Positions 13,420-45,051 of a DNA stretch of 64,000 nucleotides are shown one piece after another. The stretch covers positions 1-64,000 of IMG/VR virus record IMGVR_UViG_3300002933_000006. The stretch is one strand, 5' to 3'. Made by a program: the position numbers and the translations under genes. The DNA comes from a virus. Each line of letters starts with the position of its first letter. Position 1 is the stretch's first letter. The notes below the pieces were generated by a model, which was not told the DNA's origin, ran no database searches, and saw only the letters and a list, made by a program, of their open reading frames with translations.

Positions 13420-13635
13420 TTAACTCCACTTTAATAAAAACAAACACAGATCTTCCTCTTGAACAAATTCCACTCCACTATAACCAATGCCAATATCTTG
13501 CTGCCATCGTTGTCCATCTCCTCTCGGGCCAAAAGTTTGATCGCACCACTCATACAATTCATAAAAGTTAATAATCGGTCCGAGAAATTCTGCTATATAC
13601 TTGCTAGATTGTAATTGATAGCTACGTATATTCAT
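13420..13635 (-). CDS. LRWA-family small protein (array A), 71 aa
   Basis: Member of a repeated family defined here. The shared pattern is a helix with h-x-x-W-C-x3-F-G, a Gly/Arg/Trp loop, a beta strand (hxFxF), then a terminal helix D/E-A-x-x-F-x-L-[RK]-[WY]-[AS] ending the protein. Here the elements are YEWCDQTFGPRGDGQRW and EEDLCLFLLKWS. About 36 copies lie in two arrays (13.4-15.6 and 34.8-45.1 kb). Function unknown; the conserved aromatic C-terminus suggests one shared fold. Confidence 0.6.
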   Translation of the reverse strand: MNIRSYQLQSSKYIAEFLGPIINFYELYEWCDQTFGPRGDGQRWQQDIGIGYSGVEFVQEEDLCLFLLKWS

Positions 13636-13645
13636 TATGCTATTC

Positions 13646-13933
13646 CTAATATGTCTTTGTTAAACTATCCCACACTTCGCCGTGCCAGGGTTTAAATGTT
13701 ATATTCCATTGCCAGGGACTGTCTAAGGTATTGCCCTTTGGCTTTCCAATAAGCTCAGTCCACTCACCTTGCGTATCTTCATATACTACACGATACCGCA
13801 GACCTTGATTTATGTAAGCATACACATACTCAGCATCGTTAGTGACGCTCAAACAACCAGGGCGATTAAGATCTCGTATAAGCACAATGCCATCTTTTTT
13901 ATTAACTATTTCCCACTCAGCGTGACAACCCAT
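13646..13933 (-). CDS. Small array-A protein without LRWA end, 95 aa
   Basis: Starts at the ATG overlapping the upstream TAA (GGTCATAATG). Beta-rich (EWEIVNKKDGIVLIRDLNR, YVYAYINQGLRYRVVYED) with a Trp-rich tail. It lacks the FxLRWA terminus of its neighbours. No recognised family. Confidence 0.5.
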   Translation of the reverse strand: MGCHAEWEIVNKKDGIVLIRDLNRPGCLSVTNDAEYVYAYINQGLRYRVVYEDTQGEWTELIGKPKGNTLDSPWQWNITFKPWHGEVWDSLTKTY

Positions 13934-14112
13934 TATGACCACCTTAATAGATACATTGTTGCTAACTTGTCAGGCAATTCGATATACCATTGAGTTCGGA
14001 CAAGCATACCATTTTCTTCATGTTGACAGTCAACATCCCATCTTGGATAATGTTTGTCTAACCATTTCTCTCGTTCTCCCATCACTGGTACTGTAGTGCG
14101 TATTTTTACCAT
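13933..14112 (-). CDS. LRWA-family small protein (array A), 59 aa
   Basis: Core elements EKWLDKHYPRWD and DKLATMYLLRWS. A longer frame reaching 14193 lacks a good start; the ATG at 14112 sits in a TAATG overlap with the preceding gene, downstream of AGGTGG encoded by that gene's LRW codons. Confidence 0.6.
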   Translation of the reverse strand: MVKIRTTVPVMGEREKWLDKHYPRWDVDCQHEENGMLVRTQWYIELPDKLATMYLLRWS

Positions 14113-14327
14113 TATGCCCACCTCAACATAAACAACATTAAATCGTTTTCCTGAGCAAATTCTATCTCTCCGTAGGCAATACCATTTTTCCAACGTGCCT
14201 TAGGAACTGTACCAGCATAGCCGAACGCATCACGGCACCATTTCCACATTTCCTCACCGCTTGACGGAGGCTTAAACGCCGCTATATACGATGTCGATCC
14301 ACATGGTTGATATCCGTATATTTGCAT
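14112..14327 (-). CDS. LRWA-family small protein (array A), 71 aa
   Basis: KWCRDAFGYAGT and ENDLMLFMLRWA. Starts at ATG 14327 in the TAATG overlap. The last codons (TTGAGGTGGGCA) place AGGTGG 5 nt before the next ATG. Confidence 0.6.
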   Translation of the reverse strand: MQIYGYQPCGSTSYIAAFKPPSSGEEMWKWCRDAFGYAGTVPKARWKNGIAYGEIEFAQENDLMLFMLRWA

Positions 14328-14584
14328 TATGCCCAACTCAATAAAAACAAAGTTGCTAATCTTTCGTCATCAAACTCTACCCACCATGTTGTACTTGTAC
14401 CAGATGCCTGCCAACGATTCGCAAGATCGGTTGTTTTAGTCACAATTTTCCAGCCTTGTCCATCTGATGGGTATTTTTCATACTCATACAGCGGCAAGCC
14501 TATATTCTTATACAACCAAGAACGAATTTCGTTTATCATATTCTCCTCGCCTAAGACATGCGGAGTGATATTAATCATAGTCAT
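14327..14584 (-). CDS. LRWA-family small protein (array A), 85 aa
   Basis: RSWLYKNIGLPLYEYEKYPS and DDERLATLFLLSWA: Arg of the terminal motif is replaced by Ser, so no AGGTGG is formed for the next gene, yet the protein motif is otherwise kept. Start at 14584 in a TAATG overlap. Confidence 0.6.
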   Translation of the reverse strand: MTMINITPHVLGEENMINEIRSWLYKNIGLPLYEYEKYPSDGQGWKIVTKTTDLANRWQASGTSTTWWVEFDDERLATLFLLSWA

Positions 14585-14850
14585 TATGCCCACTTCAACG
14601 CAAATAGCGTAGCCGTTTCGTCATTTTCAAAGTAATAAACCCGAGTAAGTTGCATCTCGTTAGAATTGTGATTGTGAAGCAGGCCTGCATCAACGACGGT
14701 ATTTTCGAAGTATCTACCCGGACGATCTTGAGCCAACCAAGTTGTATACTCAATAGGATCCCATTGTTTAATGCGCTTATATGTAACATGCACTTGGGCC
14801 CAGCCACGCTCTTCTAATGTCTTAACTTGATAGCCATTCCAAAATCTCAT
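14584..14850 (-). CDS. LRWA-family small protein (array A), 88 aa
   Basis: TTWLAQDRPGRYFE and FENDETATLFALKWA. The ATG at 14850 (MRFWNGYQVKT) is chosen over the longer frame to 14925 because it overlaps the upstream stop and follows AAGGTGG. Confidence 0.6.
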   Translation of the reverse strand: MRFWNGYQVKTLEERGWAQVHVTYKRIKQWDPIEYTTWLAQDRPGRYFENTVVDAGLLHNHNSNEMQLTRVYYFENDETATLFALKWA

Positions 14851-15047
14851 TATGCCCACCTTAATAAGAACAAGACTAAATCTTTTTTCTTTGTAAAATA
14901 AAATGCCAATCCATGTTGTCTCCAAGCATAGTCTTTAAATCTTTCTTCACACCACCCTCGTTGTTTGTAAGTATCTTCCCTGTTTACCTTAGCACTATAT
15001 CGATATACAATTTGTTTTGTGCCATAATCAACATTTAATATGTCCAT
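14850..15047 (-). CDS. LRWA-family small protein (array A), 65 aa
   Basis: RGWCEERFKDYAWRQ and FTKKKDLVLFLLRWA. Follows the preceding gene by 3 nt. The N-terminal strand is VDYGTKQIVYRYS. Confidence 0.6.
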   Translation of the reverse strand: MDILNVDYGTKQIVYRYSAKVNREDTYKQRGWCEERFKDYAWRQHGLAFYFTKKKDLVLFLLRWA

Positions 15048-15050
15048 GAA

Positions 15051-15239
15051 CTAACTCCACTTTAACGCAAATATTGTAGCATCTTCTTCACATTCAAAAT
15101 ATATACCAGTTCCGCCACGTGCGTAATGGCCGTTACCTTCATAATCAACTAACCAGTGCAGTACCTGTTCATTCTTTAGTCGATTGTATGCGACGTAGGT
15201 ATAATTAACGTTTTGATCAACTATTATATTATTTTTCAT
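15051..15239 (-). CDS. LRWA-family small protein (array A), 62 aa
   Basis: LHWLVDYEGNGHYARGG and FECEEDATIFALKWS. The ATG at 15239 overlaps the upstream stop as GCATGA. The terminal codons AAGTGGAGT supply GGAG before the next start. Confidence 0.6.
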   Translation of the reverse strand: MKNNIIVDQNVNYTYVAYNRLKNEQVLHWLVDYEGNGHYARGGTGIYFECEEDATIFALKWS

Positions 15240-15421
15240 GCCCACCTTAGCAAAAACATAGTATAATCTTCTTCGCGGTCGAAGTATATAGTTTCAAATA
15301 CACAACTCCAACGACCGCCAAAATAATCATACCCAAAATGTTTCTTACACCAGGTAGTAATTTCACTCATTTCAGCAATACCATTGTATTGCCATTTTAA
15401 AATTTTAGTGCTTGCTAACAC
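15236..15421 (-). CDS. LRWA-family small protein (array A), 61 aa
   Basis: TTWCKKHFGYDYFGGRW and FDREEDYTMFLLRWA. Uses a GTG start in a TAGTG overlap with the upstream stop, downstream of AGGTGG. Confidence 0.6.
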   Translation of the reverse strand: MLASTKILKWQYNGIAEMSEITTWCKKHFGYDYFGGRWSCVFETIYFDREEDYTMFLLRWA

Positions 15422-15603
15422 TATGCCCACCTTAGCAAAAACATTGTGTAATCCCGTTTAAATCGAAAGCGACACTTAAACATATAAAATTTCCAAGTGA
15501 TGCTTGGCTCACCTACATTCTCCAGACACCAATCGATTATTTCAAGATGTTTTCGGTAATAGTCTGGTACGTCGTTGTAGTTAATTTTATATCTAAATGC
15601 CAT
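15421..15603 (-). CDS. LRWA-family small protein (array A, first copy), 60 aa
   Basis: IDWCLENVGEPSITW and FKRDYTMFLLRWA. Its ATG overlaps the stop of the 223-aa gene that heads the array-A operon. The last 10 residues match the copy at 15236 almost exactly, suggesting recent duplication or conversion. Confidence 0.6.
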   Translation of the reverse strand: MAFRYKINYNDVPDYYRKHLEIIDWCLENVGEPSITWKFYMFKCRFRFKRDYTMFLLRWA

Positions 15604-16274
15604 TATAACACCTTTACATAATTTAAGGTAGTAACTTTTGCTTTACTGTGATACCCATCTTCGGCATGTGACTTAACACGTCCAGAAATCTTGCCTGCTT
15701 CACATACTCGATCTAAATCTTTAGCCCAATAAAACACTAAATTGTCGTGTTCGGTTACACCGTATACTGCCCAGCAATTGGTATTCTGGATATAACGCTT
15801 TTCAATAAGTGTAAACCCAATGGTAATTTTTTCACCAATGCGCCCAGTATAACGACTTAGCCGTTCGTATCTGGCACCAAGTTCACGCACGTGATCTCGT
15901 TGTTGATATTGATCAACTAAATGTGGTGCCCATGCAACAATACCAAGGTCACTGATTAGTATTTCTTGATTGGCTAAGACTTGATTGAGTTGCCCCAGGA
16001 AGCGATCTGGTTGCCCCTTAAGGCTTTGCATAATCACATTTTGCTCAATGTATTGAATAATGCCATTGGCTTGCTCGCGATGGAAATCATTTACAATGAA
16101 CTTACCATCAAAGGTCCTACTAAATTGTACAGATTCTGATATAAGGTGTCGATTGGAATGATGTACAACACCGTCTATTGTAACAGTATTTCTAATCACA
16201 GATTTACTATTGTGCTCGTAAGCGGCAATCGCGGTAGCAACTACTTCTAGGGTGGGCAATGCTTTAGTCTTCAT
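15603..16274 (-). CDS. Conserved phage protein heading array A, 223 aa
   Basis: First gene after the sigma70-like promoter at 16305-16333. Two parts: an N-terminal alpha/beta region, and a C-terminal beta-rich region with NLVFYWAKDLDRVCEAGKI followed by RVKSHAEDGYHSKAKVTTLN. The latter resembles a short domain repeated in many phage proteins (G-x-V-K-x-H-x...-KVTxLNYVK). No catalytic motif seen. It probably leads a long polycistronic message reaching about 11.8 kb. Confidence 0.6.
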   Translation of the reverse strand: MKTKALPTLEVVATAIAAYEHNSKSVIRNTVTIDGVVHHSNRHLISESVQFSRTFDGKFIVNDFHREQANGIIQYIEQNVIMQSLKGQPDRFLGQLNQVLANQEILISDLGIVAWAPHLVDQYQQRDHVRELGARYERLSRYTGRIGEKITIGFTLIEKRYIQNTNCWAVYGVTEHDNLVFYWAKDLDRVCEAGKISGRVKSHAEDGYHSKAKVTTLNYVKVL

Positions 16275-16304
16275 TTAGTTGTCCATTATTCCAGTTCATA
16301 CTAT

Positions 16305-16333
16305 ATTATAGCATTATGGGAATTAATGGTCAA
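16305..16333 (-). promoter_or_regulatory. Early-type sigma70-like promoter, AATTCCCA-spacer class (array A)
   Basis: TTGACC, 17 bp, TATAAT, on the minus strand, with AATTCCCATAAT inside the spacer. It reads into the 223-aa gene and array A. The -35 region overlaps the 3' end of the coiled-coil gene upstream. Confidence 0.8.
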
Positions 16334-17750: not shown

Positions 17751-18950
17751 TTACAATTTCCAATATGGCGCAAATTCTGGAACTACATCTAATACATATT
17801 CATTGCGTACTTGATCCAGTTTTTGTGTAGTTGCTATTACTGCTTCCCACGACATTGACGGTGATTGATACATGTAAGTAATTACTGCATCAATTTTGTC
17901 TTTAAGTATTTCGTATTTACTACTAGACAATAAACGATCTCGGGCTAGATCTTTTAACTCAGCAGGTAAGTTAGTAATATTTTGATCAAATGGGCCATGT
18001 GATACAGTTAAATCAGTTCCTTCAAAAACTGTACTATTATCAAATGCAAAATCAAATACTTCCGCTAAATGCAGGATGTTATATACGGTGATCACTATGT
18101 TAAATTTTAATTTGGTATTAGGATATGCTAGTACTGTTTTAATATTTTTTTGTGTGTTTGCCCAATCGGCACCAGATCTAATATACTCCAGCAATGGCCC
18201 AACAGCGTCAAGACTTACAATAAACAATATATTAGTAAATCGTTGTAAATATTCTTCTAAGCGATGTTTACCAAAACTTAACTTACTTAAATTTGTTGTG
18301 TAAGTAATACGAATATCGTGTAAGCCAAGTTGATCTAAATGATCTAACATTGCCCAATGCTCTGCTTGAAATAATGCTTCTCCGCCGGCAAAGTACACTT
18401 CCTTTAATTCACTCAGGTCTCCGTACTTGGAAATAATGCTTGCCCAATCGGTTGTATCATGTGCTTGTATTACAAAGTCTTTACGGCCGGTACCACGATA
18501 TGATTCTTCTGCCCAGGTATGACTATAAGCAGGACCACACATGCGACATTTATAGTTACAGATGTTGCTAAATCTACTGTCCCAATATTGCATTTTAAAA
18601 TCATGCAACGTGCCATCACTATCAGTGTTGCTTAATAATGAATCAACATCTATATTAAAATTCTTAATATCTAAATTCTTATTTGTACGGAAACTATTGA
18701 GACCAACACTTTCTTCTCGATAGCATTGACTACACGCAGAGTTCTTATTACCGGCTAGCATATCTGTTCTAACTTCGCGCATTGATTTAGAATTCATTAC
18801 AGATTCTGCTGAGTCAAAATCTCTTAAATTACCAAATTGCTTATTAATAGTATTAGCAGAACAACAGGGCTGAATATTACCACTGGGCTCATGAAAGAAA
18901 TGAATCCATGGTAATATACAAAAGGTATTACTCGGTAGGGGTTTCTTCAT
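17751..18950 (-). CDS. Radical SAM protein with Cys-rich N-terminal and twitch/SPASM-like features
   Basis: 399 aa. The radical SAM cluster motif is CNYKCRMC (C-x3-C-x2-C, about residue 131), followed by VYFAGGEALFQAEHW (the GGE motif) and VSLDAVGPLLEYIRSG. The N-terminus has FCILPWIHFFHEPSGNIQPCC and later CSQCYREE, additional Cys pairs of the kind that bind an auxiliary Fe-S cluster. This architecture occurs in phage and bacterial proteins that modify peptides or sugars; the substrate here is unknown. Adjacent genes at 16581 and 18928 may be partners. Confidence 0.85.
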   Translation of the reverse strand: MKKPLPSNTFCILPWIHFFHEPSGNIQPCCSANTINKQFGNLRDFDSAESVMNSKSMREVRTDMLAGNKNSACSQCYREESVGLNSFRTNKNLDIKNFNIDVDSLLSNTDSDGTLHDFKMQYWDSRFSNICNYKCRMCGPAYSHTWAEESYRGTGRKDFVIQAHDTTDWASIISKYGDLSELKEVYFAGGEALFQAEHWAMLDHLDQLGLHDIRITYTTNLSKLSFGKHRLEEYLQRFTNILFIVSLDAVGPLLEYIRSGADWANTQKNIKTVLAYPNTKLKFNIVITVYNILHLAEVFDFAFDNSTVFEGTDLTVSHGPFDQNITNLPAELKDLARDRLLSSSKYEILKDKIDAVITYMYQSPSMSWEAVIATTQKLDQVRNEYVLDVVPEFAPYWKL

Positions 18951-32202: not shown

Positions 32203-32206
32203 ACTA

Positions 32207-36832: not shown

Positions 36833-37116
36833 TATTCATTCCTTAATATATCAAATGCATCGCCGTATTCATATTTGTCGTATTTCATTACCGGAAACTT
36901 ACTGTCTGATTGAAATCGACGATAAACGGTCTTACCCCATTGCCACTTTCCGTGTATATCCCGGACAGGACGCCATGCAAACCACCTTTCCCACTTTGGC
37001 ATTGCAGTTTTAACATCAAATTCGGGAACTATTCTCCAGTTGACGCTATCGTACATTTCCCAGTTATTAGTAGTTGTCTTAAAACGTAACTGTCCTGTAA
37101 CTGGTTGTTGAATCAT
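36829..37116 (-). CDS. FAW-FDIL-family small protein (array B), 95 aa
   Basis: Founding member of a second repeated family defined here: W-x3-F-A-W-x-P-[VI]...G-x-W-x-W-x-[KR]-x-[VI]-Y-x-R...Y-x3-F-D-I-L. Here: KWERWFAWRPVRDIHGKWQW, KTVYRRF, EYGDAFDILRNEY. The N-terminal 30 aa (TGQLRFKTTTNNWEMYDSVN) are an added strand pair. Five copies lie at 36.8-39.2 kb. Function unknown. Confidence 0.6.
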   Translation of the reverse strand: MIQQPVTGQLRFKTTTNNWEMYDSVNWRIVPEFDVKTAMPKWERWFAWRPVRDIHGKWQWGKTVYRRFQSDSKFPVMKYDKYEYGDAFDILRNEY

Positions 37117-37126
37117 CTATCGTCCT

Positions 37127-37444
37127 TTATCCGTGTGGTCTCGGTGCAGGCGGTGGCGGCTTGGGTGGCCGTTGCCCGGTTGCTTGTTTTGGTGTGTCGA
37201 TATCTTTAAGCAAATCAAAGTCTGTAGCATAATCACAGCCGGCATAGCGTTGAAATACTGTTGAATTGCGACGGTATATGCTTTTAAGCCATACGCAATC
37301 GCCGCTGATAGTCGTAACAGGATGCCACGCATACCACCGACGCCATTCCCCGGGTGCTCCGCCCATATTGCGTACCATTTCATTTATCTCTGTGGATAAT
37401 TTATGTATTTGGTCTACCAATTGTTTTATTTGTTGGTTATTCAT
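37127..37444 (-). CDS. FAW-FDIL-family small protein (array B), 105 aa
   Basis: RRWYAWHPVTTISGDCVWLK, SIYRR, ATDFDLLKDID. Carries a helical N-terminal addition (NNQQIKQLVDQIHKLSTEIN) and a Pro-rich tail (RPPKPPPPAPRPHG). Confidence 0.6.
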   Translation of the reverse strand: MNNQQIKQLVDQIHKLSTEINEMVRNMGGAPGEWRRWYAWHPVTTISGDCVWLKSIYRRNSTVFQRYAGCDYATDFDLLKDIDTPKQATGQRPPKPPPPAPRPHG

Positions 37445-37623
37445 CTATCGTCCTTTAATCTATCAAAGTCGTCGCTGTATCGACGACGCACGCCGCCTGG
37501 GCCAAATCGTTCTGTATACCAAATCCATTCACGCCAATACCAGCGACCATTTACCCTGCGTGGAATAATGCTACAGAAATGTTTTTTCCATTGAGGCTCT
37601 GGCTCTTTGTACGTTACACCCAT
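37441..37623 (-). CDS. FAW-FDIL-family small protein (array B), 60 aa
   Basis: KKHFCSIIPRRVNGRWYWRE, and RYSDDFDRLKDDR. The ATG at 37623 (MGVTYKEPEPQW) follows GGTGG and is preferred to an upstream TTG frame at 37671 that overlaps the preceding gene. Confidence 0.55.
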   Translation of the reverse strand: MGVTYKEPEPQWKKHFCSIIPRRVNGRWYWREWIWYTERFGPGGVRRRYSDDFDRLKDDR

Positions 37624-37645
37624 AGGACCACCATTCCATTCATCT

Positions 37646-37840
37646 TTAGGCTTCCTCCTGTAAGATGCCAAATACTGTATCTGTATAGTAGATAACCAAC
37701 TCTGTGTCTTTGCGATATATCATTTTAAGCCAATGCCATTTATTGTTAATCTTAATAGGTTTCCATGCAAATACTCTTTTCCACTTAGGTGCTTCTTCTC
37801 TTGTCACTGTTATGCTACCGTCTGGATAGTAAATAACATC
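37646..37840 (-). CDS. FAW-FDIL-family small protein, start unresolved, about 58-64 aa
   Basis: An open frame with KWKRVFAWKPIKINNKWHWL, KMIYRKD and TDTVFGILQEEA, clearly the second repeated family. No ATG/GTG/TTG exists near its 5' end before a GTG at 37807; an ATT at 37834 follows AAGG. Either it uses an unusual start, or it is a decayed or frameshifted copy. Confidence 0.5.
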   Translation of the reverse strand, partial: DVIYYPDGSITVTREEAPKWKRVFAWKPIKINNKWHWLKMIYRKDTELVIYYTDTVFGILQEEA

Positions 37841-37841
37841 C

Positions 37842-38273
37842 TTAGGCCCACCTCAACGTAAACATAATGTAATCCCGTTCATCACGGAAAGTTATACTGC
37901 ATAATCCTGTATACCAACGTGACCAAGCATCTGGATTCTTTGGTTTCCGACCAAACTGTTCCTCTGCCCAGTTTAACGCATCTTTCCAATCCTGTGGCTC
38001 GATATCAACCCTGTACCATTTAGCACGGCTAAAGTTCATTGGTTTCTTGGTAAACACTCTTGTATCCTTTTGATAGAATTGTAATGGGATATACGGTGCA
38101 TAGAACGCACCCATAGACATAGACATTGGCTGTACGCCCACGATATCATTAGCCAGTAAATCAGGAACTGTCTGCCTAATTATAGAAAGTACGGCCTTTT
38201 GTGTATTGGCGGTATTCGGTTGCCCTATAAATTGAGCAAGTGCATCATTCAATTGTTTCTGGATTGTATTCAT
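37842..38273 (-). CDS. LRWA-family protein with long N-terminal extension (array B), 143 aa
   Basis: C-terminal module LNWAEEQFGRKPKNPDAW and FRDERDYIMFTLRWA. The first 85 residues are unrelated to other copies (helical start QKQLNDALAQFIGQPN, then a Met/Pro/Tyr-rich strand MSMSMGAFYAPYIPLQFY). ATG at 38273 is in a TAATG overlap. Confidence 0.6.
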   Translation of the reverse strand: MNTIQKQLNDALAQFIGQPNTANTQKAVLSIIRQTVPDLLANDIVGVQPMSMSMGAFYAPYIPLQFYQKDTRVFTKKPMNFSRAKWYRVDIEPQDWKDALNWAEEQFGRKPKNPDAWSRWYTGLCSITFRDERDYIMFTLRWA

Positions 38274-38488
38274 TATGACCATTTCAACATAAAGACTGAT
38301 GCATCTTTTGCATCCTTAAAATAAAATGTGCTATCCTCGTTTATCCAACCAAATCGCCAGCGATACTTACGTCCACCTGGACCGAATGATTCTTCGCACC
38401 AAGATATAATCTCAGTTTCTTGTTTTCCTGTAGTAAAGGGCACGGTAATCTTTGTTTTATATTTGCTTTTGCGTTCTGCTACTATCAT
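38273..38488 (-). CDS. LRWA-family small protein (array B), 71 aa
   Basis: ISWCEESFGPGGRKYRW and FYFKDAKDASVFMLKWS, an excellent example of the full consensus. ATG at 38488 overlaps the upstream TGA. Confidence 0.65.
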   Translation of the reverse strand: MIVAERKSKYKTKITVPFTTGKQETEIISWCEESFGPGGRKYRWRFGWINEDSTFYFKDAKDASVFMLKWS

Positions 38489-38673
38489 GCCCATCTCAAT
38501 GCAAATAGTGTAATATCTATTTCTTTATAAATCATAATAACATAACTCCCCCATTGATCGTCGGGATCTTCTATATATTTCCATCTGTCCATATTATGGC
38601 CAAACTGCTCTACGCACCACTGCAACATTTTCGCAGTTCTTTCGCTTACCATCGATACCCGGTGATATATCAC
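38485..38673 (-). CDS. LRWA-family small protein (array B), 62 aa
   Basis: LQWCVEQFGHNMDRWKY and IYKEIDITLFALRWA. GTG start overlapping the upstream stop (CGTGA). Closest in its first half to the copy at 42159 (RWCAEQFGHMRLDRWY). Confidence 0.6.
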   Translation of the reverse strand: MIYHRVSMVSERTAKMLQWCVEQFGHNMDRWKYIEDPDDQWGSYVIMIYKEIDITLFALRWA

Positions 38674-38951
38674 GAATATTTCAACCTAAACACAGTTTCC
38701 TCAGCAGGAGTATCAAACTTCAGTACCCACTTACTCGATCTATACATACTATCACCTACACGGAACTCTCTAACAACAATGCGATAGTTACCGGGCCAGC
38801 GTAGTTTCATTCTGTCGGTAATCATATCTAATGTAGTATTAGGGTCGCGATCACTCATTTCCCAATCTGTTAACCATTCCCATGGTGTTTTCACTTGATA
38901 TTTCTCCTCGATGTTAAACCAAGTTTTTGCTATTCCATAACTAATTGTCAT
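38670..38951 (-). CDS. LRWA-family small protein (array B), 93 aa
   Basis: Ends KFDTPAEETVFRLKYS. N-terminal half WLTDWEMSDRDPNTTLDMIT differs from the WC-FG helix. Coupled by 4-nt overlaps. Confidence 0.55.
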   Translation of the reverse strand: MTISYGIAKTWFNIEEKYQVKTPWEWLTDWEMSDRDPNTTLDMITDRMKLRWPGNYRIVVREFRVGDSMYRSSKWVLKFDTPAEETVFRLKYS

Positions 38952-39151
38952 TCTGCCGCCGCCAATATATCAAACATTGTAGCATACTCTGTAAAAGGTT
39001 CTTCGTGCATACCAGTATAACGCCAGACAATACGTTTATAACACTTGCGAAACCAAATCCATTGGCCTGTAATCGTACGGTGCGGAAAGACAGCGAAACT
39101 GGGCCACCAGTCTATCTGTACAGTAACTAATTCATTTATATATTTCATCAT
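38948..39151 (-). CDS. FAW-FDIL-family small protein (array B), 67 aa
   Basis: WWPSFAVFPHRTITGQWIWF, KCYKRIVWRY, YATMFDILAAAE. The end blends both families: ATMF as in LRWA copies and FDIL as in the second family. ATG at 39151 overlaps the upstream TGA. Confidence 0.55.
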   Translation of the reverse strand: MMKYINELVTVQIDWWPSFAVFPHRTITGQWIWFRKCYKRIVWRYTGMHEEPFTEYATMFDILAAAE

Positions 39152-39450
39152 GCCCACCTTAACGCAAACATCATTGATTGTTCTTCATCTGTTATATCAA
39201 CTACATAACCTGTGCGATATCCACACCAACCACCTATGACTCGATCATCATAATCTTCATAGTATGCTCTGATTTCCCATCCCGCCCCAATATATAATGC
39301 AACTTCCTCGCCATTGTCTGTTAGTGGTGTATCGCCCCGGCAATAATATTCGCCAACATTCTCTTCTAACCACAATTTGATATCCTGTAATCTATGTTCA
39401 TGTTCGCGGATATCCTGTATTTCACGGCGAGAGATTTCAAATATACCCAT
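39148..39450 (-). CDS. LRWA-family small protein (array B), 100 aa
   Basis: KLWLEENVGEYYCRGDT and ITDEEQSMMFALRWA. Contains a longer beta region between (EVALYIGAGWEIRAYYED). Confidence 0.6.
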   Translation of the reverse strand: MGIFEISRREIQDIREHEHRLQDIKLWLEENVGEYYCRGDTPLTDNGEEVALYIGAGWEIRAYYEDYDDRVIGGWCGYRTGYVVDITDEEQSMMFALRWA

Positions 39451-39660
39451 TTATAACCATCTTAATTTAAACATTGTAGCATACTTTTCCTCAGAGAAGT
39501 AGAATGTATAACACCTAAATGGTGCATCTACGGTCCATGGATTATGCCGATTTACATTATCTTTCCAAATAGCTTGGTTGCCAATATAGGTATTACACCA
39601 TTTAACAATTTCCATATACTTTTGGACATCAATATCTAATTCAACTTGGTCTGCTATCAT
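39451..39660 (-). CDS. LRWA-family small protein (array B), 69 aa
   Basis: VKWCNTYIGNQAIWKDN and FYFSEEKYATMFKLRWL. ATG at 39660 in a GCATGA overlap with the preceding LRWA codons. Confidence 0.6.
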   Translation of the reverse strand: MIADQVELDIDVQKYMEIVKWCNTYIGNQAIWKDNVNRHNPWTVDAPFRCYTFYFSEEKYATMFKLRWL

Positions 39661-39899
39661 GCCCACCTCAACATAAAAGTCATCCGTTGTTTTTCGTCCA
39701 TTATTGTAAAACTAGCAAACTGGCCTTTTTCGTCAGTCCACTGATTTCTAAATCTAAAATCAATACCGTTATTGTTAAGCCATTGCCACACCAAGCTAGT
39801 ATATTCACCGTAAGGACAAGGTATCTTAACAGTTGCGTTCATATCTGCTACCAGTTCCGGGCTCGGTTTGTATGGATTCTGTTCGTTGTATACAATCAT
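39657..39899 (-). CDS. LRWA-family small protein (array B), 80 aa
   Basis: WQWLNNNGIDFRFRNQW and IMDEKQRMTFMLRWA. Start at 39899 in a GGATGA overlap. Confidence 0.6.
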   Translation of the reverse strand: MIVYNEQNPYKPSPELVADMNATVKIPCPYGEYTSLVWQWLNNNGIDFRFRNQWTDEKGQFASFTIMDEKQRMTFMLRWA

Positions 39900-40201
39900 C
39901 CCCACCTCAACAAAAACATAGTACGATCCGCATCGTGGTCAAAGTGTAAAACCATCCCTGTTTGCCTAATGCCAGACCCGTACTCGTCTATCCACTTCTC
40001 AATGTCTTTTTGATTGTTAACCCAATGTACGTAATCTTCGATGATTAGCATAAGTGCACCTGTCACAGGTGACATAGCAGGAATAAACTTGCCGCCGGCT
40101 TGCATTTGTATTACCCCGTTGAGAAACTGTAGCTTTTCTCCATTTTCTTCTATAGTAACTAAATCTAAGCCGGGCATTATATTTTTAAGAGTTCTTTTCA
40201 T
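39896..40201 (-). CDS. LRWA-family protein with N-terminal extension (array B), 101 aa
   Basis: EKWIDEYGSGIRQTGM and FDHDADRTMFLLRWG. The first 45 residues add a beta-rich segment (NGVIQMQAGGKFIPAMSPVT). The alternative ATG at 40177 would remove the 17-nt overlap with the upstream gene. Confidence 0.55.
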   Translation of the reverse strand: MKRTLKNIMPGLDLVTIEENGEKLQFLNGVIQMQAGGKFIPAMSPVTGALMLIIEDYVHWVNNQKDIEKWIDEYGSGIRQTGMVLHFDHDADRTMFLLRWG

Positions 40202-40538
40202 ATGTCAGTGTAATGCGATTAAGTGCTTGTCTGGGGTAGATATGTTTGCTTTGTACATAGATCTGCCCATCAGGAAAGTCATAAGTTAGCATCCAATTAA
40301 AATAACGCTTATCGTATATTTGACCTTCTTTGTACATTACCGTTTCCACTAAGTTAGGTAATGTACGCTCTGCAGGATATACGCCACCTGGATTCTTAAT
40401 ACGATCAATTAAGATTTCGTCTTGTAATTCTCTGTAAGTCAGCGGTTCTACTTCAATATCAGTCCATAGAGGATTTTTACGTTCTTTATTTAGGAACGCA
40501 ATCATGTCCTTGTCCCGCATAATAAGTTTTACTTTCAT
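40185..40538 (-). CDS. Small array-B protein without LRWA end, 117 aa
   Basis: Start at the ATG overlapping the upstream TGA. Sequence includes NPLWTDIEVEPLTYRELQDE and YFNWMLTYDFPDGQIYVQSK and ends TLTYEKNS. Probably beta-rich. No family recognised. Confidence 0.5.
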   Translation of the reverse strand: MKVKLIMRDKDMIAFLNKERKNPLWTDIEVEPLTYRELQDEILIDRIKNPGGVYPAERTLPNLVETVMYKEGQIYDKRYFNWMLTYDFPDGQIYVQSKHIYPRQALNRITLTYEKNS

Positions 40539-40714
40539 CACGACCACCTTAACATAAAAAAATTAACATCTTCCATTCGTTCAAAATATATAATAGGCAA
40601 ATCTCCGCGGCAGTCAACGAGATCGCCAAAGTTTTCTTTTGCCCATTCTTGCATCTCTATACGCTTACGATATGATGCAGAACCTATAGTTACTTCAATA
40701 TGTTGTTTTTCCAT
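40538..40714 (-). CDS. LRWA-family small protein (array B), 58 aa
   Basis: QEWAKENFGDLVDCRGD and IYFERMEDVNFFMLRWS: close to the minimal family unit. ATG at 40714 in a TAATG overlap after AAGGTGG. Confidence 0.6.
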   Translation of the reverse strand: MEKQHIEVTIGSASYRKRIEMQEWAKENFGDLVDCRGDLPIIYFERMEDVNFFMLRWS

Positions 40715-40929
40715 TATGCCCACCTTAACGCAAATAACACCGCATCTTTGTCATCTTCGAACTCTACAAAACATTCTTTTGTCCAGCTAGGTGATTCATA
40801 AAACCGTGCTTGACATTTTGCGTTACACCAGTACCGTAGATCAAAGTTCTTTAAAAGATCTCTACTGTAATAAACACGATGTAGCACTGGCAGATGTATA
40901 CCTGGCATTGTTTCTTTATAGGTAATCAT
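40714..40929 (-). CDS. LRWA-family small protein (array B), 71 aa
   Basis: RYWCNAKCQARFYESPSW and VEFEDDKDAVLFALRWA. Two Cys in the first helix. Confidence 0.6.
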   Translation of the reverse strand: MITYKETMPGIHLPVLHRVYYSRDLLKNFDLRYWCNAKCQARFYESPSWTKECFVEFEDDKDAVLFALRWA

Positions 40930-41168
40930 GACATCCTTAAGGCAAATAATGTTACATCCTGCGCCGAAGCAAATCCCAACTTTATAACACCGTTGGCATT
41001 GGCACTATAAAGAATATTGTGCTTTTCTTCAAACCACCGAACCATTGACTCGTTTGAATAATCCCTTTGATTATTTGGCAATGATACTTGGTGGGCCCGC
41101 CACTCATCAAGTACGTTACTGTAGGGCTTTAATAATCGCTCAAAGCGAACGTAATACCTATCTCTCAT
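40926..41168 (-). CDS. LRWA-family small protein (array B), 80 aa
   Basis: VRWFEEKHNILYSANAN and FASAQDVTLFALRMS: Trp replaced by Met in the terminal motif. ATG at 41168 in a TGATG overlap. Confidence 0.6.
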   Translation of the reverse strand: MRDRYYVRFERLLKPYSNVLDEWRAHQVSLPNNQRDYSNESMVRWFEEKHNILYSANANGVIKLGFASAQDVTLFALRMS

Positions 41169-41437
41169 CACAGCGACTCTATATCCCTACAAATAAGTTT
41201 AAGCCATACAAGTTCTTGTTCATTGACTTTGCCCCAACTTGTGTTATTACTAGGTGCTTTAACAAGTGTAACACCATTGGCATTTTCTAGCCACACACGA
41301 TTGCTGTTCTTTAGTGCTTCGTCGTGCAAGTACCTCCATCCTACTGTACCGGGTTTAACATCAGTAATACTAAGGTACTTGTGCGTATTGCCAAATATAG
41401 TAATGTTGTCTTGAATTTCGTAATAGTAGTTAATCAT
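41168..41437 (-). CDS. Small array-B protein, 89 aa
   Basis: Ends VNEQELVWLKLICRDIESL, possibly a degenerate LRWA end (ELVWLKLIC). The segment NRVWLENANGVTLVKAPSNN is similar to the NANGVIKLGFAS stretch of the downstream copy, suggesting local duplication. Overlaps by 4 nt at both ends. Confidence 0.5.
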   Translation of the reverse strand: MINYYYEIQDNITIFGNTHKYLSITDVKPGTVGWRYLHDEALKNSNRVWLENANGVTLVKAPSNNTSWGKVNEQELVWLKLICRDIESL

Positions 41438-41661
41438 AGTCTTGACTCCAGTCCCGGGACCTTCATTACCTCTATAATATTACAATGTATGCATCGCTTA
41501 TTAAGAACATAGTGCTGTATAGACGTATAATTCTTGTCTTTGATCCACTGTCCCTTGTTCCAGTGTGTCCAACGATGTATACCAAAACGACACCAAAAAC
41601 TATTCACAAGTGGAGACTCATCCTTTAATGCTCTAACTGTATTTTCGTGTTCGATATTCAT
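41434..41661 (-). CDS. Small zinc-ribbon-like protein, paralog 1 of 2, 75 aa
   Basis: HENTVRALKDESPLVNSFWC, CRFGIHRWTHW and NKRCIHCNIIE. The Cys-x-x-G-x-H-R-W core plus C-x-x-C resembles small phage proteins of the DUF1660 kind. Its neighbour at 41658 is a clear duplicate. Confidence 0.6.
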   Translation of the reverse strand: MNIEHENTVRALKDESPLVNSFWCRFGIHRWTHWNKGQWIKDKNYTSIQHYVLNKRCIHCNIIEVMKVPGLESRL

Positions 41662-41846
41662 TTTGTCTGATTAAATTGATGTTTATTACAGCAAAGGCAT
41701 TTTCTGTATTGTGTCCATTTTTCATTTAACATAGGTTCTTTCCAAAAACTCCACCTGTGTAATCCCAAACGGCATTGCCAACGGTATACAGGAAATGGTT
41801 CATGCCCTTTAAGGACTCTCATTGTATTCTCTTTATCAACATTCAT
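41658..41846 (-). CDS. Small zinc-ribbon-like protein, paralog 2 of 2, 62 aa
   Basis: KENTMRVLKGHEPFPVYRWQ, CRLGLHRWSFW and YRKCLCCNKHQ. Same layout as 41434. ATG at 41846 overlaps the end of the upstream gene by 11 nt and is preferred over the longer frame to 41918. Confidence 0.55.
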   Translation of the reverse strand: MNVDKENTMRVLKGHEPFPVYRWQCRLGLHRWSFWKEPMLNEKWTQYRKCLCCNKHQFNQTK

Positions 41847-42162
41847 CTGTGCGATTCCACTCTTCTTCGTAAAAATCAACTTGCTGTTGTATGTCTCGAT
41901 CATCATAATGCTCAACACGCATTAATGTCAGTTCGCCTTCGTACTTTAATTTTAGCATACTTTCTTGCTTATCATCAACGGTATCTACCCAATATTCTGC
42001 TCGGCCTGCTATCGAAATTGGCTGTCCGTTACGGTGATTAACAAGATTATGAAAATCATGTGATTCGACTTTAGATTCAAGTTTATTGCAACACCCGGTT
42101 ATCCAATTATAGTCAGCTTCATCTAACTGTGGCCGGTCAATACGCCAACGCTTTAATATCAT
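41836..42162 (-). CDS. LRWA-related protein with C-terminal extension (array B), 108 aa
   Basis: The family end appears internally as TVDDKQESMLKLKYEGE and is followed by 25 extra residues (MRVEHYDDRDIQQQVDFYEE). The ATG at 42162 overlaps the upstream stop; a longer frame to 42246 lacks support. Confidence 0.5.
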   Translation of the reverse strand: MILKRWRIDRPQLDEADYNWITGCCNKLESKVESHDFHNLVNHRNGQPISIAGRAEYWVDTVDDKQESMLKLKYEGELTLMRVEHYDDRDIQQQVDFYEEEWNRTDEC

Positions 42163-42344
42163 AGCCAATACAATGCAAACAAGCTCGCATCCTCTTCTCG
42201 TACAAATTGTATAAACTGTGTACCAAAAGCAAATCGTTGATACCAACGGTCTAGTCGCATATGGCCAAACTGTTCAGCACACCATCGAGCAATTTCTATA
42301 TGCTTGTGATAATACTCGTCGCGATCTAATGTAAATTCAATCAT
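42159..42344 (-). CDS. LRWA-family small protein (array B), 61 aa
   Basis: ARWCAEQFGHMRLDRWYQ and FVREEDASLFALYWL. ATG at 42344 in an ATGA overlap. Confidence 0.6.
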   Translation of the reverse strand: MIEFTLDRDEYYHKHIEIARWCAEQFGHMRLDRWYQRFAFGTQFIQFVREEDASLFALYWL

Positions 42345-42562
42345 AGCCATTGTAATCTAAACATAGTTTCTGCGGCATCATCAAAGAAGTCTAAATGCAC
42401 TTCTTCAATATAAGTGTGCTTTACATAACGAGCTTCAGCAAAACGTGGACAAAATCCCAATTCGCGACGCATCTTTTCTCGAATCATAGCCGTAGCTTTG
42501 CCGTGTTTTTCCTCTATGTTATTACGAACAATAGACCATTCGTGCTTTGATAATGTAATCAT
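42341..42562 (-). CDS. LRWA-family small protein (array B), 73 aa
   Basis: Helix REKMRRELGFCPRFAEAR and end DFFDDAAETMFRLQWL. Overlaps the next gene by 4 nt. Confidence 0.55.
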   Translation of the reverse strand: MITLSKHEWSIVRNNIEEKHGKATAMIREKMRRELGFCPRFAEARYVKHTYIEEVHLDFFDDAAETMFRLQWL

Positions 42563-42735
42563 ACAAACCTCAGCATAAATGCTGTTAAATCTTGCTCAGT
42601 CTTATAAACTATACCAGTAACATATATTTCATACTGCCCATTATCATCACACCAATCTTTGATTTCAAAAAGCTCATCCCAATTCTTCCATTCAATGGCA
42701 ATATGGTTGTAGCGTTGATCGACTGTTAGTTTCAT
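42559..42735 (-). CDS. LRWA-family small protein (array B), 58 aa
   Basis: Short gene with IKDWCDDNGQYEIYVTG and YKTEQDLTAFMLRFV. Begins MKLTVDQRYNHIAIEW at 42735; its TGA overlaps the next ATG. Clear family member of minimal length. Confidence 0.6.
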   Translation of the reverse strand: MKLTVDQRYNHIAIEWKNWDELFEIKDWCDDNGQYEIYVTGIVYKTEQDLTAFMLRFV

Positions 42736-42983
42736 TCTCGAATACCTAAGTATTTTAAGTTATAGTACGTAAGTGCTTCGCCCGTTAATGGTGCGTATAT
42801 ACGAATCATAAATCCATAATCGTGTGAGTCGCAGAAGAATACTAAATCATCACACTTTGTTTTAAGCCACTGAGCTTCTTCGGTTTGTTCCCACTGATAT
42901 ATAGGATCAGCGGCATACAAATAAGGATCTTCACAATCGCCCATGCGTATTTCTTTAACTAAGGTTCCTCTACCATTCTTCAT
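42732..42983 (-). CDS. LRWA-related protein (array B), 83 aa
   Basis: Ends APLTGEALTYYNLKYLGIRE, i.e. FxLKY followed by five extra residues. The first half (KTKCDDLVFFCDSHDYG) is Cys-rich. Overlaps 42970 by 14 nt. Confidence 0.5.
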   Translation of the reverse strand: MKNGRGTLVKEIRMGDCEDPYLYAADPIYQWEQTEEAQWLKTKCDDLVFFCDSHDYGFMIRIYAPLTGEALTYYNLKYLGIRE

Positions 42984-43470
42984 AGTTATAGTTTTTCTTT
43001 AATGCGTAAAATGTAAATTGTTGTTCCATCAGGTCAATAAACTGGTTGGCTTGATCCAATGACTCTAATATAATACCTGTTGCTACACGATTAGGAGTGC
43101 CACGTTCAAATAACCCTCTTATAAAATAGTCTCGGTTGTTGTCATTTACCATCCACATAGCTTCACAACTAATCCACTGCACTTCCCATTTGACATACTG
43201 CTCTAATGAAAACGTTTGTTCAGGAACGGGATCCGCAGGGTTAGGCGGCATAGTCTTATAACTCCACAGCATACCGGGATTCTTAGCACGATAGTATTCT
43301 ACATTGTAGCCAATGCCTAACTCACCTGGCTTTATGTTATCAAATATAATCTCGCACAATCTAAACTTGGTTATATCCGCTTCAATAGGTCCCAACTCAC
43401 ACCAATCAACGTACCACTTATCGGGGGCGCCTGGGCAACGATCAATCTTAAACTGGCTTTTAAAGTTCAC
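42970..43470 (-). CDS. Array-B protein, 166 aa, with distant LRWA-like end
   Basis: GTG start overlapping the upstream stop. Contains PDKWYVDWCELGPIEADITK and ends ANQFIDLMEQQFTFYALKKN, where FTFYALKK recalls the family helix. Possibly a larger fused or ancestral form; otherwise unknown. Confidence 0.5.
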   Translation of the reverse strand: MNFKSQFKIDRCPGAPDKWYVDWCELGPIEADITKFRLCEIIFDNIKPGELGIGYNVEYYRAKNPGMLWSYKTMPPNPADPVPEQTFSLEQYVKWEVQWISCEAMWMVNDNNRDYFIRGLFERGTPNRVATGIILESLDQANQFIDLMEQQFTFYALKKNYNYEEW

Positions 43471-44155
43471 GGTGTAAGTTAGTGTAAGCTACCCAAAACT
43501 TATAAACAAGTTCCGAGTTATAATCATCAAAACCTAAGTAATCATACAATTCCTGCATCATTTGATTAAACGGGTGCCATTCCATAAATGTATTATCAAC
43601 ATCAATCATAAATGAATCAAGTTGATAAAACTCTTGATCTTTGTAATAATATTCTCTAGCAGAGATATAACCATTGTCGGTTAGAGTATGTTTGCTACTT
43701 TTTAATGTTGCTGCTAATGCACGAAAATTATCAAAGTTTTTAAATTCTATAATCTTTGCCTGCGGATAGATTAGCATTTGCTTCATTAGTGTACGATAAT
43801 CGTGTGTTATTGTACAGGAAAGTTTTCCTTGGGTTAGAATATCATTTAATACTACATTACAACTAATTCGTTCTCTTATAGTTTTAATATTGTTTTCTTT
43901 ATAAAAATCTTCGTGAATTCCGTATAGCTTATCGCAACCAAATTCGTAGTCGAACCAGTTTCTCATATTATCAATTGGTGGCAAAGATTTCATTACACTT
44001 TTAAGTTTAAACTCATAGTATGTAGGATCGAATTTTTTAAATTTTAAATCTAGTCTGGCCAAAGGTTCGCTTTGTACAACACAATGTCTACTGAGTGCTA
44101 GGCAGTTAGCAATAAACTTTCCGCCGGTATATGTTGGGTATACTAATATTATCAT
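43460..44155 (-). CDS. P-loop / sulfotransferase-like protein inside array B, 231 aa
   Basis: N-terminus MIILVYPTYTGGKFIANCLA is the start of a family of phage proteins with a glycine-loop (TGGKFIAN) where sulfotransferase-like P-loops sit. Later AKIIEFKNFDNFRALAATLK and a C-terminal YDYLGFDDYNSELVYKFWVA, a pattern also seen in small sulfotransferases (D-x-L-G-F/L). Activity not established. The only gene of array B with an enzyme-like look. Confidence 0.45.
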   Translation of the reverse strand: MIILVYPTYTGGKFIANCLALSRHCVVQSEPLARLDLKFKKFDPTYYEFKLKSVMKSLPPIDNMRNWFDYEFGCDKLYGIHEDFYKENNIKTIRERISCNVVLNDILTQGKLSCTITHDYRTLMKQMLIYPQAKIIEFKNFDNFRALAATLKSSKHTLTDNGYISAREYYYKDQEFYQLDSFMIDVDNTFMEWHPFNQMMQELYDYLGFDDYNSELVYKFWVAYTNLHREL

Positions 44156-44413
44156 TTAAAGTCCATTAATTAATCCGCCGACAAATTCTGCTGTGTATTC
44201 TTCTTTATAACGACGCACACCGCCAGTCTTTAATTGAAACATAAGTGCATCTTGTTCGTTGTTAAATGTAAAGTCCATCCAATCGTGTGTAGGATTAAAA
44301 CTTACATTTTCGCCGGGTAACCCATAGGTCTCTACAGTCCAGGCAAGTAGTTTAGTCCATTCTCGGGCAGTATCATCGTTGTAGTTCCACGGTACTCTAA
44401 TCGTTACGCTCAT
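44156..44413 (-). CDS. LRWA-related protein with C-terminal extension (array B), 85 aa
   Basis: LAWTVETYGLPGENVSF and FNNEQDALMFQLKTGG, then about 20 extra residues (YKEEYTAEFVGGLINGL). The family core is intact before the extension. Confidence 0.55.
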   Translation of the reverse strand: MSVTIRVPWNYNDDTAREWTKLLAWTVETYGLPGENVSFNPTHDWMDFTFNNEQDALMFQLKTGGVRRYKEEYTAEFVGGLINGL

Positions 44414-44615
44414 TCTTTGCTTTCAACATGCGCCAAGCTCTTGGTTCTAAACGCCGACAATCCCAATATAACTTCTTCTTAACACGACTGTATCTAAAGT
44501 AAACATACCAACGATCTAAACTTAATACAAATCCTACGCTACGATCACCTGGGCGCCAAACGCTTAATCCAGGTTTAACCGGGTCGCCTTCTTTGCGCCA
44601 CTGTATTATGCCCAT
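44397..44615 (-). CDS. Small basic protein (array B), 72 aa
   Basis: Strongly basic, Trp/Arg-rich: RWYVYFRYSRVKKKLYWDCR. Not an LRWA member. The ATG lies inside the LKWA codons of the upstream gene. Possibly nucleic-acid binding. Confidence 0.45.
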   Translation of the reverse strand: MGIIQWRKEGDPVKPGLSVWRPGDRSVGFVLSLDRWYVYFRYSRVKKKLYWDCRRLEPRAWRMLKAKNERND

Positions 44616-44854
44616 TTTAATGTTGCCGCTAAAAACATTTGTTCTGCATCTTTGCGATTACGATACTTCCATCTACTTCCCCACGTACCAGATTTATTGC
44701 GTAGAGGGTCAAAGAAGTCGCGAATTTCGCGTTCAACCTCGTGTTCTAATGTCCAAGCTTCGCAACGAACTTCGTACCACTTCTTATCTTTTTTCTTGCG
44801 TTGCACAAGAGCAAAGCATCCAACTTCGCTTAATGTTTTATTCTGATTACTCAA
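44606..44854 (-). CDS. LRWA-family small protein (array B), 82 aa
   Basis: End RNRKDAEQMFLAATLKWA. TTG start at 44854 overlapping the upstream TGA and 5 nt after AGGTGG is preferred over a GTG at 44863. Confidence 0.55.
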   Translation of the reverse strand: MSNQNKTLSEVGCFALVQRKKKDKKWYEVRCEAWTLEHEVEREIRDFFDPLRNKSGTWGSRWKYRNRKDAEQMFLAATLKWA

Positions 44855-45051
44855 TGTGCCCACCTTAGTCTAAATAATGTTTCACTCGCTGAATCGGGTA
44901 AATAGAACCTCCAATGATAACTGGGAAAGTCTGTCATAAAGTTCCATTTACCCGATTCAAAATGTCGATTACACCATCGTATAATTCTCTCGATTTGTGT
45001 TGGGGTTAGTTTAGTTGTATTAAGTACTACACAGTTGGGTTTAGAAGTCAT
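44851..45051 (-). CDS. LRWA-family small protein (array B, first copy), 66 aa
   Basis: IRWCNRHFESGKWNFM and LPDSASETLFRLRWAH. First gene after the promoter at 45057-45085; starts 6 nt downstream of the -10 box, so the transcript has almost no leader with this ATG, unless a later in-frame start is used. Confidence 0.6.
   Translation of the reverse strand: MTSKPNCVVLNTTKLTPTQIERIIRWCNRHFESGKWNFMTDFPSYHWRFYLPDSASETLFRLRWAH

Follow-up and report, generated by a model that had tools for sequence, protein, structure and literature searches.

A 64,000-nucleotide stretch of viral DNA (hereafter the window; bases 1-64000 of the 69,201-base IMG/VR record IMGVR_UViG_3300002933_000006) contains two tandem arrays of short genes whose products end in an FxLRWA-type motif. 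Judging from their sequences, the array genes form one protein family, with homology that extends across the domain and beyond the shared ends; the FxLRW arrays represent a large and widespread protein family of giant phages, previously undescribed and unannotated. Our preferred interpretation, to which we give slightly less than an even chance, is that the arrays are operons of exchangeable, translationally coupled cassettes, which may supply an early-made binding repertoire similar to a polyimmunity locus.

Array genes and family membership

The terminal motif or a close variant was found in 31 minus-strand open reading frames (ORFs), nine of them at 13420-15603 (array 1) and 22 at 34763-45051 (array 2). 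Including four variants, two with altered ends (35856, WWVLNR; 44606, AATLKWA) and two with C-terminal extensions (42732, 44156), the array genes number 35 (Table 1), in agreement with the two arrays of about 36 paralogs proposed in the initial annotation. Pure chance does not account for the motif: ten mononucleotide-shuffled windows yielded only 0-2 such ORFs each. Two plus-strand ORFs (17505 and 43313) fitting a loose form of the pattern were discarded as chance matches. Two details of the annotation required correction. Several listed genes begin too early (MGIM..., MVIM...), as the true start codon is in most cases the ATG that overlaps the preceding stop codon (TAATG or ATGA), and the arrays do not consist of paralogs only, as they also contain five copies of a second family (the W family) and other genes.

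A hidden Markov model (HMM) built from 148 sequences of other contigs, with the FxLRWA tail removed, recovered 22 of the 31 window members at E<=1e-3, a number that rose to 26 when the threshold was relaxed to 0.01. Its single match in 272 other window ORFs, the same at both thresholds, was 44156, itself a member; of the shuffled controls (five copies per ORF) none passed 0.01, one passed 0.1, and 19 passed 1. Because most members are found without their tails, the homology lies in the domain and not in the shared ends alone; failure of such a model to find the other copies had been named at annotation as one outcome that would speak against homology. Five members (34960, 35414, 38670, 40926, and 42341) and the variants 35856, 42732, and 44606 miss E 0.01 in this search, and the assignment of sub-threshold members and variants rests mainly on motif, position, or a relative in L108, a related metagenomic contig. 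The family HMM, seeded partly from the window, matches 27 window ORFs at E<1e-3.

Scans of 100 members against Pfam, PHROGs, NCBIfam, and PADLOC revealed no library family matching more than one member; the best match (E 0.0015, PADLOC) was chance-like, and the family profile compared with PDB sequences gave a best E of 0.37, also at chance level. No description of the FxLRW family was found in the literature searched, including term look-ups in PMC6102473 and PMC11242549, so the earlier impression that it belongs to no described system still holds. Searches of phage records with single members returned mostly the query's own phage group and chance-level matches, although a weak match (E 1) pointed to phage Phosso; since single sequences gave little, a profile search was needed.

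Predicted fold and conserved positions

The AlphaFold model of 38276-38485, calculated with 100 family sequences (predicted local distance difference test score, pLDDT, 87.5; predicted template modelling score, pTM, 0.74), comprises a strand, a helix, two strands, and a helix. The model of 39899-40105, a member of the GM subfamily (pLDDT 85.8, pTM 0.66; 17 subfamily sequences, seven of them also in the first alignment), shows the same order of elements with an extra N-terminal strand. Compared by the order of secondary-structure elements only, the two modelled members are predicted to have a common core, alpha-beta-beta-alpha with one or more N-terminal strands, which is likely to be shared by divergent members, and not the unrelated folds considered in the initial annotation.

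Several profile positions are nearly fixed among unique members: W29 (742 of 778), F56 (700 of 837), F65 (789 of 832), and L67 (807 of 828); position 43 (W43) is occupied by tryptophan in 502 of 648, and 99% of the residues in column 54 are hydrophobic. Eighteen mainly hydrophobic columns average 1.89 bits and 43 polar columns 3.57 bits, with many loop and strand columns at about 4.0-4.2 bits of a possible 4.3. The diversity reported earlier between the anchors was therefore real, and it surrounds conserved hydrophobic positions.

No solved structure clearly matches: the best Foldseek E was 0.45 (first model), and VIA Z-scores reached at most 6.4 for the first model and 6.3 for the second, with weak likeness to RRM, KH, and ferredoxin-like folds. 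In a search of predicted viral structures the top matches were mostly uncharacterised proteins of uncultured phages (three at E<=0.001), with Atu_ph07 at rank 26.

The junction between array genes

At many junctions in the window the final codons read like TTA AGG TGG GCA TAATG, or the next start overlaps the stop as ATGA. The L-R-W codons thus contain, a few bases ahead of the next ATG, the sequence AGGTGG, which matches the anti-Shine-Dalgarno end of 16S rRNA well.

Viral loci with such arrays were retrieved by a 23-base junction pattern and two variants of it, which yielded at least 132 loci. Selection by this pattern enriches canonical arrays, and some loci share one contig or lie on near-identical contigs. 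Codon usage was examined in the 725 unique gene ends outside the retrieval pattern, with the 112 that fit it excluded; the ATG of the next gene overlaps 488 of the 725, and the motif is present in 588. The motif arginine is encoded by AGG in 347 of 461 cases, against 264 of 3,011 arginine codons elsewhere in the same genes, and AGG is more frequent where the next ATG overlaps (290 of 356) than where it does not (57 of 105; Fisher p 7e-8). A strong Shine-Dalgarno (SD) core lies ahead of 60% of 483 overlapping starts after family genes; the figure for 438 overlapping starts after other ORFs, a set that may include spurious ones, is 19%.

The Phosso tails viewed (FKLTWS, FKLRWS, FKLAWS) mostly keep F-x-L-x-W and mostly lack AGG, and the parts of Phosso and PA5oct viewed are, unlike the window arrays, mostly without the AGG junction. 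Because Phosso keeps the tails mostly with other codons, the C-terminus can be said to have two layers: FxLxW as a feature of the protein and the AGG-coded arginine as a translation signal of the array-bearing phages. The striking conservation of the last residues, emphasized in the initial annotation, thus holds at the protein level for F-x-L-x-W but is partly a DNA-level effect of the ribosome-binding site of the next gene.

A promoter-like motif, TTCCCAAT-N5-ATAAT, has 14 matches in the window with at most two mismatches (11 on the minus strand, three on the plus strand), a number reached by none of 100 shuffles; a related pattern has eight minus-strand matches and no plus-strand match in the window. 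This is probably a promoter class of the window phage itself.

Cassette-like gene content

Blocks of homology were mapped among 95 array sources (94 loci and the window), each with at least three members. For right block ends (n=199), 43% are no more than 5 nt away from the stop codon of a family gene (random 3%), compared with 4.8% of 2,347 right ends (random 1.6%) in a control near the clamp loader gene. For 106 homologies ending at a junction, blastp detected no similarity between the genes that follow in 63 (E>0.01) and similarity in 39, and four had no ORF; many of the following genes in the 63 dissimilar cases are still family members. Up to about 60% of the junction-ended homologies look like true changes of neighbour.

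The site of array 1 lies downstream of a 223-amino-acid gene and upstream of a 198-amino-acid NT5C-like gene (Pfam E 2e-4, below the cut-off). In L010, L012, L013, and L014 the array is absent and the flanking genes join by an ATGA overlap; L006 and L009 have one family gene and two other genes at this site, L011 and L015 have about 230 and 450 bases between the flanks, and the window has nine family genes. Ten genes of array 2 have counterparts in L108, with identities of 34-77%; nine are collinear, and the tenth, a 34% match, is possibly a paralogue. Array content thus differs strongly between related phages.

Selection, diversity, and origin of the copies

The ratio of nonsynonymous to synonymous substitution rates (dN/dS) was estimated for 40 independent family pairs of 74-97% nucleotide identity, with the last codons excluded. 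The median is 0.185 and no pair exceeds 1; other genes of the same loci (23 pairs of at least 100 amino acids) have a median dN/dS of 0.083 and a median dS of 1.16, against 0.52 for the family. Purifying selection indicates that the family proteins matter. The strong diversification claimed earlier is apparent in the polar and loop positions but is not accompanied by a sign of positive selection in these pairs.

Clustering at 45% identity divides the 837 unique members into 533 groups, of which 415 are singletons, and the Chao1 estimate is near 1,880, an indicative figure only, as sampling was non-random. Of 751 members in arrays of at least five, the closest relative lies on another contig for 700 and in the same array for 41, with nine having no match and one a tie. 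This raw count favours an old shared pool over recent tandem duplication as the sole origin; it is, however, biased by search-space size. In size-matched draws the own array was closest in 6,778 cases and another array in 3,074, with 5,168 ties, and since the own array wins these draws, local duplication contributes to the arrays.

Occurrence in other phages

HMM matches were found in 131 of the 132 loci retrieved, with at least three in 94 and at least five in 80; all loci besides those of named phages are metagenomic and have no host assignment. Whole records were searched for 30 cases: the window's own record, ten chosen by pattern, Phosso, and 18 clamp-loader relatives above 120 kb among the matches listed. 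The remaining such relative among the matches listed is the contig of L013, counted within the ten as L108. Matches at E<=0.001 occur in 29 of the 30 records and in 17 of the 18 clamp-loader relatives, which carry 0-11 copies each; L108 has six. The densest record, the 94,375-base contig IMGVR_UViG_3300044613_002694 (L094, L201), has 81 copies at E<=0.001.

Four of 16 named phages have members at E<=0.01: Sinorhizobium phage Phosso (37), Agrobacterium phage Atu_ph07 (5), and the Pseudomonas phages PA5oct (4) and Paride (4), the Atu_ph07 matches being weak (best E 1.5e-4). Their proteins belong to the same family by profile search, and those of Phosso, PA5oct, and Paride are annotated as hypothetical. 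No members at this threshold were found in SCTP-2, phiKZ, G, T4, P-SSM2, XacN1, phiM9, CcrColossus, BcepSauron, RaK2, 121Q, or Lak-B1. None of 24 loci in bacterial or archaeal genomes fetched by one junction pattern contained a family member, and as this search used that single pattern, absence from cellular genomes is unproven. The Phosso record is also annotated with a tRNA-Pyl(cta) (L125 928-1003), possibly a suppressor tRNA.

Proposed mechanism and alternative explanations

According to the cassette model each gene would encode one small beta-alpha-beta-beta-alpha domain in which the hydrophobic positions are fixed and the remainder is very variable. As the sequence shows, the last codons (F-x-L-R-W-A) of most genes overlap an SD sequence and the start of the next; this would give translational coupling, and a cassette could be gained, lost, or swapped through recombination at the short conserved junction. 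Since each cassette brings its own downstream ribosome-binding site, such exchange would leave expression of the row intact. The row would be expressed jointly as one operon, early in infection, and each product may neutralise or redirect a different host protein, whether a defence, a toxin, or a takeover target. By analogy, a repertoire of host- or defence-binding proteins is the most likely function, and an anti-defence or host-takeover role is plausible. That the whole constitutes a recombinase-independent system, with the end motif acting both as ribosome-binding site and as homology for exchange, and with a large shared pool of surface-diverse mini-proteins from which phages could draw against varied host defences while restoring a working operon at each exchange, is a possible but rather doubtful extension.

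Several observations weigh against this interpretation. Left block ends (n=204) are less sharp than right ones: 7% lie no more than 5 nt, and 35% no more than 25 nt, from a family stop (3% and 13% at random), and their number peaks over the 30 nt ahead of a stop codon, where the preceding gene has its conserved tail. A homology that ends at a stop can reflect a conserved tail followed by a fast-diverging N-terminus of the next gene, which fits 39 of the 106 cases, and some of the 63 may be orthologues too diverged for blastp to detect. Where no ATG overlaps, AGG still encodes the arginine at 57 of 105 ends; an SD core of the pattern used is lacking at about 35% of the overlapping family junctions; and the AGG junction is not general to the whole family, as the Phosso members viewed mostly lack it. 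With transcription from the promoter-like motif, the first gene of array 2 would have hardly any leader, and the window's promoter pattern is found on the array strand of only one other of the 95 array sources. No positive selection was seen in the 40 pairs, where a few positively selected sites would escape pairwise averages, and none of the members has an assigned function, nor was any host target found.

It is extremely improbable that the shared ending is a translation signal only, that is, that unrelated genes look alike because their last codons encode the next ribosome-binding site. The preference for AGG and the SD enrichment at family junctions would be expected of such a signal, and the 223-amino-acid gene before array 1, which is not a family member, also ends in AAGGTG and TAATG. 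The tail-trimmed HMM result already largely refutes this explanation, the conserved W29 and F56 lie far upstream of the SD sequence, the two models share a predicted core, and Phosso members keep FxLxW mostly without AGG. Somewhat unlikely is a nucleic-acid-binding module of RRM, KH, or ferredoxin-like type, expanded into a set of RNA or DNA regulators: the weak structural likeness extends to EF-G domain III and designed ferredoxin-like proteins, and the roughly 35-copy zinc ribbon of Bacillus phage G (PMC7824862) is an earlier case of a regulator-like domain expanded on a large scale in a jumbo phage, but all Z-scores are below 7, such folds are common, and the profile alone, taken without coordinates, has no strongly conserved basic column except the terminal arginine.

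Tolerated ballast, i.e., small ORFs that are harmless, easily duplicated, and of little function each, is unlikely: a dN/dS above that of neighbouring genes, copy numbers from 0 to 81 per record, the absence of array 1 in close relatives, and within-array members closer than those of size-matched random arrays agree with it, whereas dN/dS lies well below 1 in every pair, reading frames, core residues, and coupling signals are retained, and the window and L108 have related cassettes in common, nearly in order. It is very unlikely that the products are virion or assembly accessory proteins such as decoration proteins. Long structural-looking genes at 22.7-31.2 kb (identified by eye) do lie a few kb from array 2, but copy number and diversity vary widely, and the PA5oct homologues EST35_0247, 0274, 0275, and 0282 are not among the genes marked in that record by electrospray ionization tandem mass spectrometry (ESI-MS/MS). 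The cassette model would explain in a simple manner how an operon can keep working through gene swaps and accounts for the near-invariant ending; should the proteins bind host defences, the arrays would amount to a ready list of new candidates for anti-defence proteins. Both ideas are testable, because the cultured phages Phosso, Paride, PA5oct, and Atu_ph07 carry members.

Features of the window and phage context

The coordinates of array genes and associated features are given in Table 1. The gene ahead of array 1 has a similar tail (NYVK...) in the eight related loci shown. Proteins of the W family are W-rich, with the pattern FAWxP...W.W..YRR...FDxL (26 matches across the loci searched) and PHROG matches of unknown function; homology of this family to the FxLRW family was unsupported by hhalign. 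Two tandem ORFs within the span of array 2 (41434-41918, minus strand) have, by eye, a zinc-ribbon-like Cys/His pattern, and no Pfam or PHROG match at E<=0.01 was found for the ORF at 41437-41661.

Table 1. Array genes and associated features of the window
Feature	Coordinates	Strand	Evidence and remarks
Gene ahead of array 1	15603-16274	-	223 amino acids; last codons AAGGTGTTATAATG supply SD and start for first array gene
Array 1 member 1 (...FLLRWA)	15421-15603	-	Motif; HMM E 5e-15
Array 1 member 2 (...FLLRWA)	15236-15430	-	HMM E 2e-16; listed start probably too early
Array 1 member 3 (...FALKWS)	15051-15245	-	HMM E 9e-12
Array 1 member 4 (...FLLRWA)	14850-15047	-	HMM E 6e-12
Array 1 member 5 (...FALKWA)	14584-14925	-	HMM E 5e-9; listed start probably too early
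Array 1 member 6 (...FLLSWA)	14327-14593	-	HMM E 8e-8
Array 1 member 7 (...FMLRWA)	14112-14336	-	HMM E 7e-13
Array 1 member 8 (...YLLRWS)	13933-14193	-	HMM E 8e-4; start probably too early
Array 1 member 9 (...FLLKWS)	13420-13635	-	HMM E 6e-11
Promoter-like TTCCCAATATGTTATAAT	45057-45074	-	5 bases before first array 2 ATG
Promoter-like motif, minus-strand sites	16305, 34175, 45057, 52708, 53056, 56003, 59352, 59522	-	
Array 2 first member (...FRLRWAH)	44851-45051	-	HMM E 4e-11; 77% identical relative in L108
Array 2 variant (...AATLKWA)	44606-44863	-	Motif variant only; weak HMM E 0.12
Array 2 member, C-terminal extension after FQLK	44156-44413	-	HMM E 1e-9
Array 2 variant (...YYNLKYLGIRE)	42732-42983	-	By eye, without HMM support; 73% identical relative in L108
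Array 2 member (...FMLRFV)	42559-42735	-	HMM E 4e-8
Array 2 member, divergent (...FRLQWL)	42341-42562	-	Motif; HMM E 0.34
Array 2 member (...FALYWL)	42159-42350	-	HMM E 1e-10
Array 2 member (...FALRMS)	40926-41171	-	HMM E 8e-4; tail-trimmed HMM 0.32
Array 2 member (...FALRWA)	40714-40929	-	HMM E 1e-10
Array 2 member (...FMLRWS)	40538-40723	-	HMM E 2e-13
Array 2 member, GM subfamily (...FLLRWG)	39896-40201	-	HMM E 9e-12; AlphaFold model (39899-40105)
Array 2 member (...FMLRWA)	39657-39905	-	HMM E 2e-8
Array 2 member (...FKLRWL)	39451-39666	-	HMM E 3e-13
Array 2 member (...FALRWA)	39148-39450	-	HMM E 1e-9
Array 2 member, divergent (...FRLKYS)	38670-38951	-	Motif; HMM E 0.07
Array 2 member (...FALRWA)	38485-38673	-	HMM E 3e-12
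Array 2 member, reference structure (...FMLKWS)	38273-38494	-	HMM E 3e-17; AlphaFold model (38276-38485)
Array 2 member, long N-terminal part (...FTLRWA)	37842-38282	-	HMM E 1e-13
W family, four tandem genes	36829-37807	-	Second array family; fifth copy 38948-39157
Array 2 member (...YKLKYS)	36337-36636	-	HMM E 0.005
Array 2 member (...FTLKFK)	36080-36337	-	HMM E 5e-7
Array 2 variant (...WWVLNR)	35856-36083	-	HMM E 0.11
Array 2 member (...FKLKWL)	35623-35859	-	HMM E 4e-11
Array 2 member (...FTLKYL)	35414-35632	-	HMM E 0.013
Array 2 member (...FRLKWL)	35169-35417	-	HMM E 3e-9
Array 2 member, divergent (...FCLKYS)	34960-35178	-	Motif; tail-trimmed HMM E 0.32
Array 2 last member (...FQLKWA)	34763-34978	-	HMM E 2e-9
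Phage-encoded transfer-messenger RNA (tmRNA), betaproteobacterial type	56583-56923	-	RF01850 169 bits; ARAGORN tag ANDNTFALAA

The clamp-loader gene of the window shares 58.9% identity with its counterpart in PA5oct-type Pseudomonas jumbo phages and less with those of Phosso (48.1%), Atu_ph07 (44.2%), and SCTP-2 (41.3%); close relatives occur in many contigs, the largest being 357 kb among the matches listed. As the tmRNA is of betaproteobacterial type, the host of the window phage is likely a betaproteobacterium. An ORF resembling a GIY-YIG homing endonuclease (by eye; 56117-56611, plus strand) is antisense to the tmRNA and overlaps its edge. Other genes of the window encode a TctC tripartite tricarboxylate receptor (7854-8828, minus strand; Pfam E 1e-16), a Radical SAM/SPASM protein near the phage clamp loader (17751-18950, minus strand; Pfam), and an iron/manganese superoxide dismutase (31316-32226, minus strand; Pfam), which adjoins an IscA/HesB-like ORF (by eye).

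Comparison with known systems

Three known systems resemble the FxLRW arrays in some respect. In Bacillus phage G a zinc ribbon is expanded to roughly 35 copies (Iyer et al., 2021, PMC7824862), so that there, too, a single small domain has undergone a large lineage-specific expansion within a jumbo phage; the domain is a different one, no coupling junction is noted in the part of the report considered, and phage G has no match to the FxLRW family profile. The start-associated sequences (SAS) of Cluster K mycobacteriophages are repeated elements with an SD core that precede many non-structural gene starts (Pope et al., 2011, PMC3203893). They are similar in being short, repeated, and placed just ahead of starts, but they precede genes of different families, whereas the FxLRW element forms the 3' coding end of genes in a single family and results from a protein motif; the 13-bp GGGATAGGAGCCC-type element was not found, and the junctions read show the TTTNNNTTRAGGTGG-type inside the upstream coding sequence. 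Homogeneous polyimmunity loci are composed of bacterial immunity genes tied to polymorphic toxins, several of them beside recombinases (Zhang et al., 2012, PMC3482391). Like these loci, the arrays are tandem, same-strand, and packed rows of distant paralogues of one fold, with content that varies between relatives; unlike them, they are phage genes with no known toxin partner and with the ribosome-binding site within the gene end. None of the three systems is identical with the FxLRW family; in function, the homogeneous polyimmunity locus is the nearest analogy.

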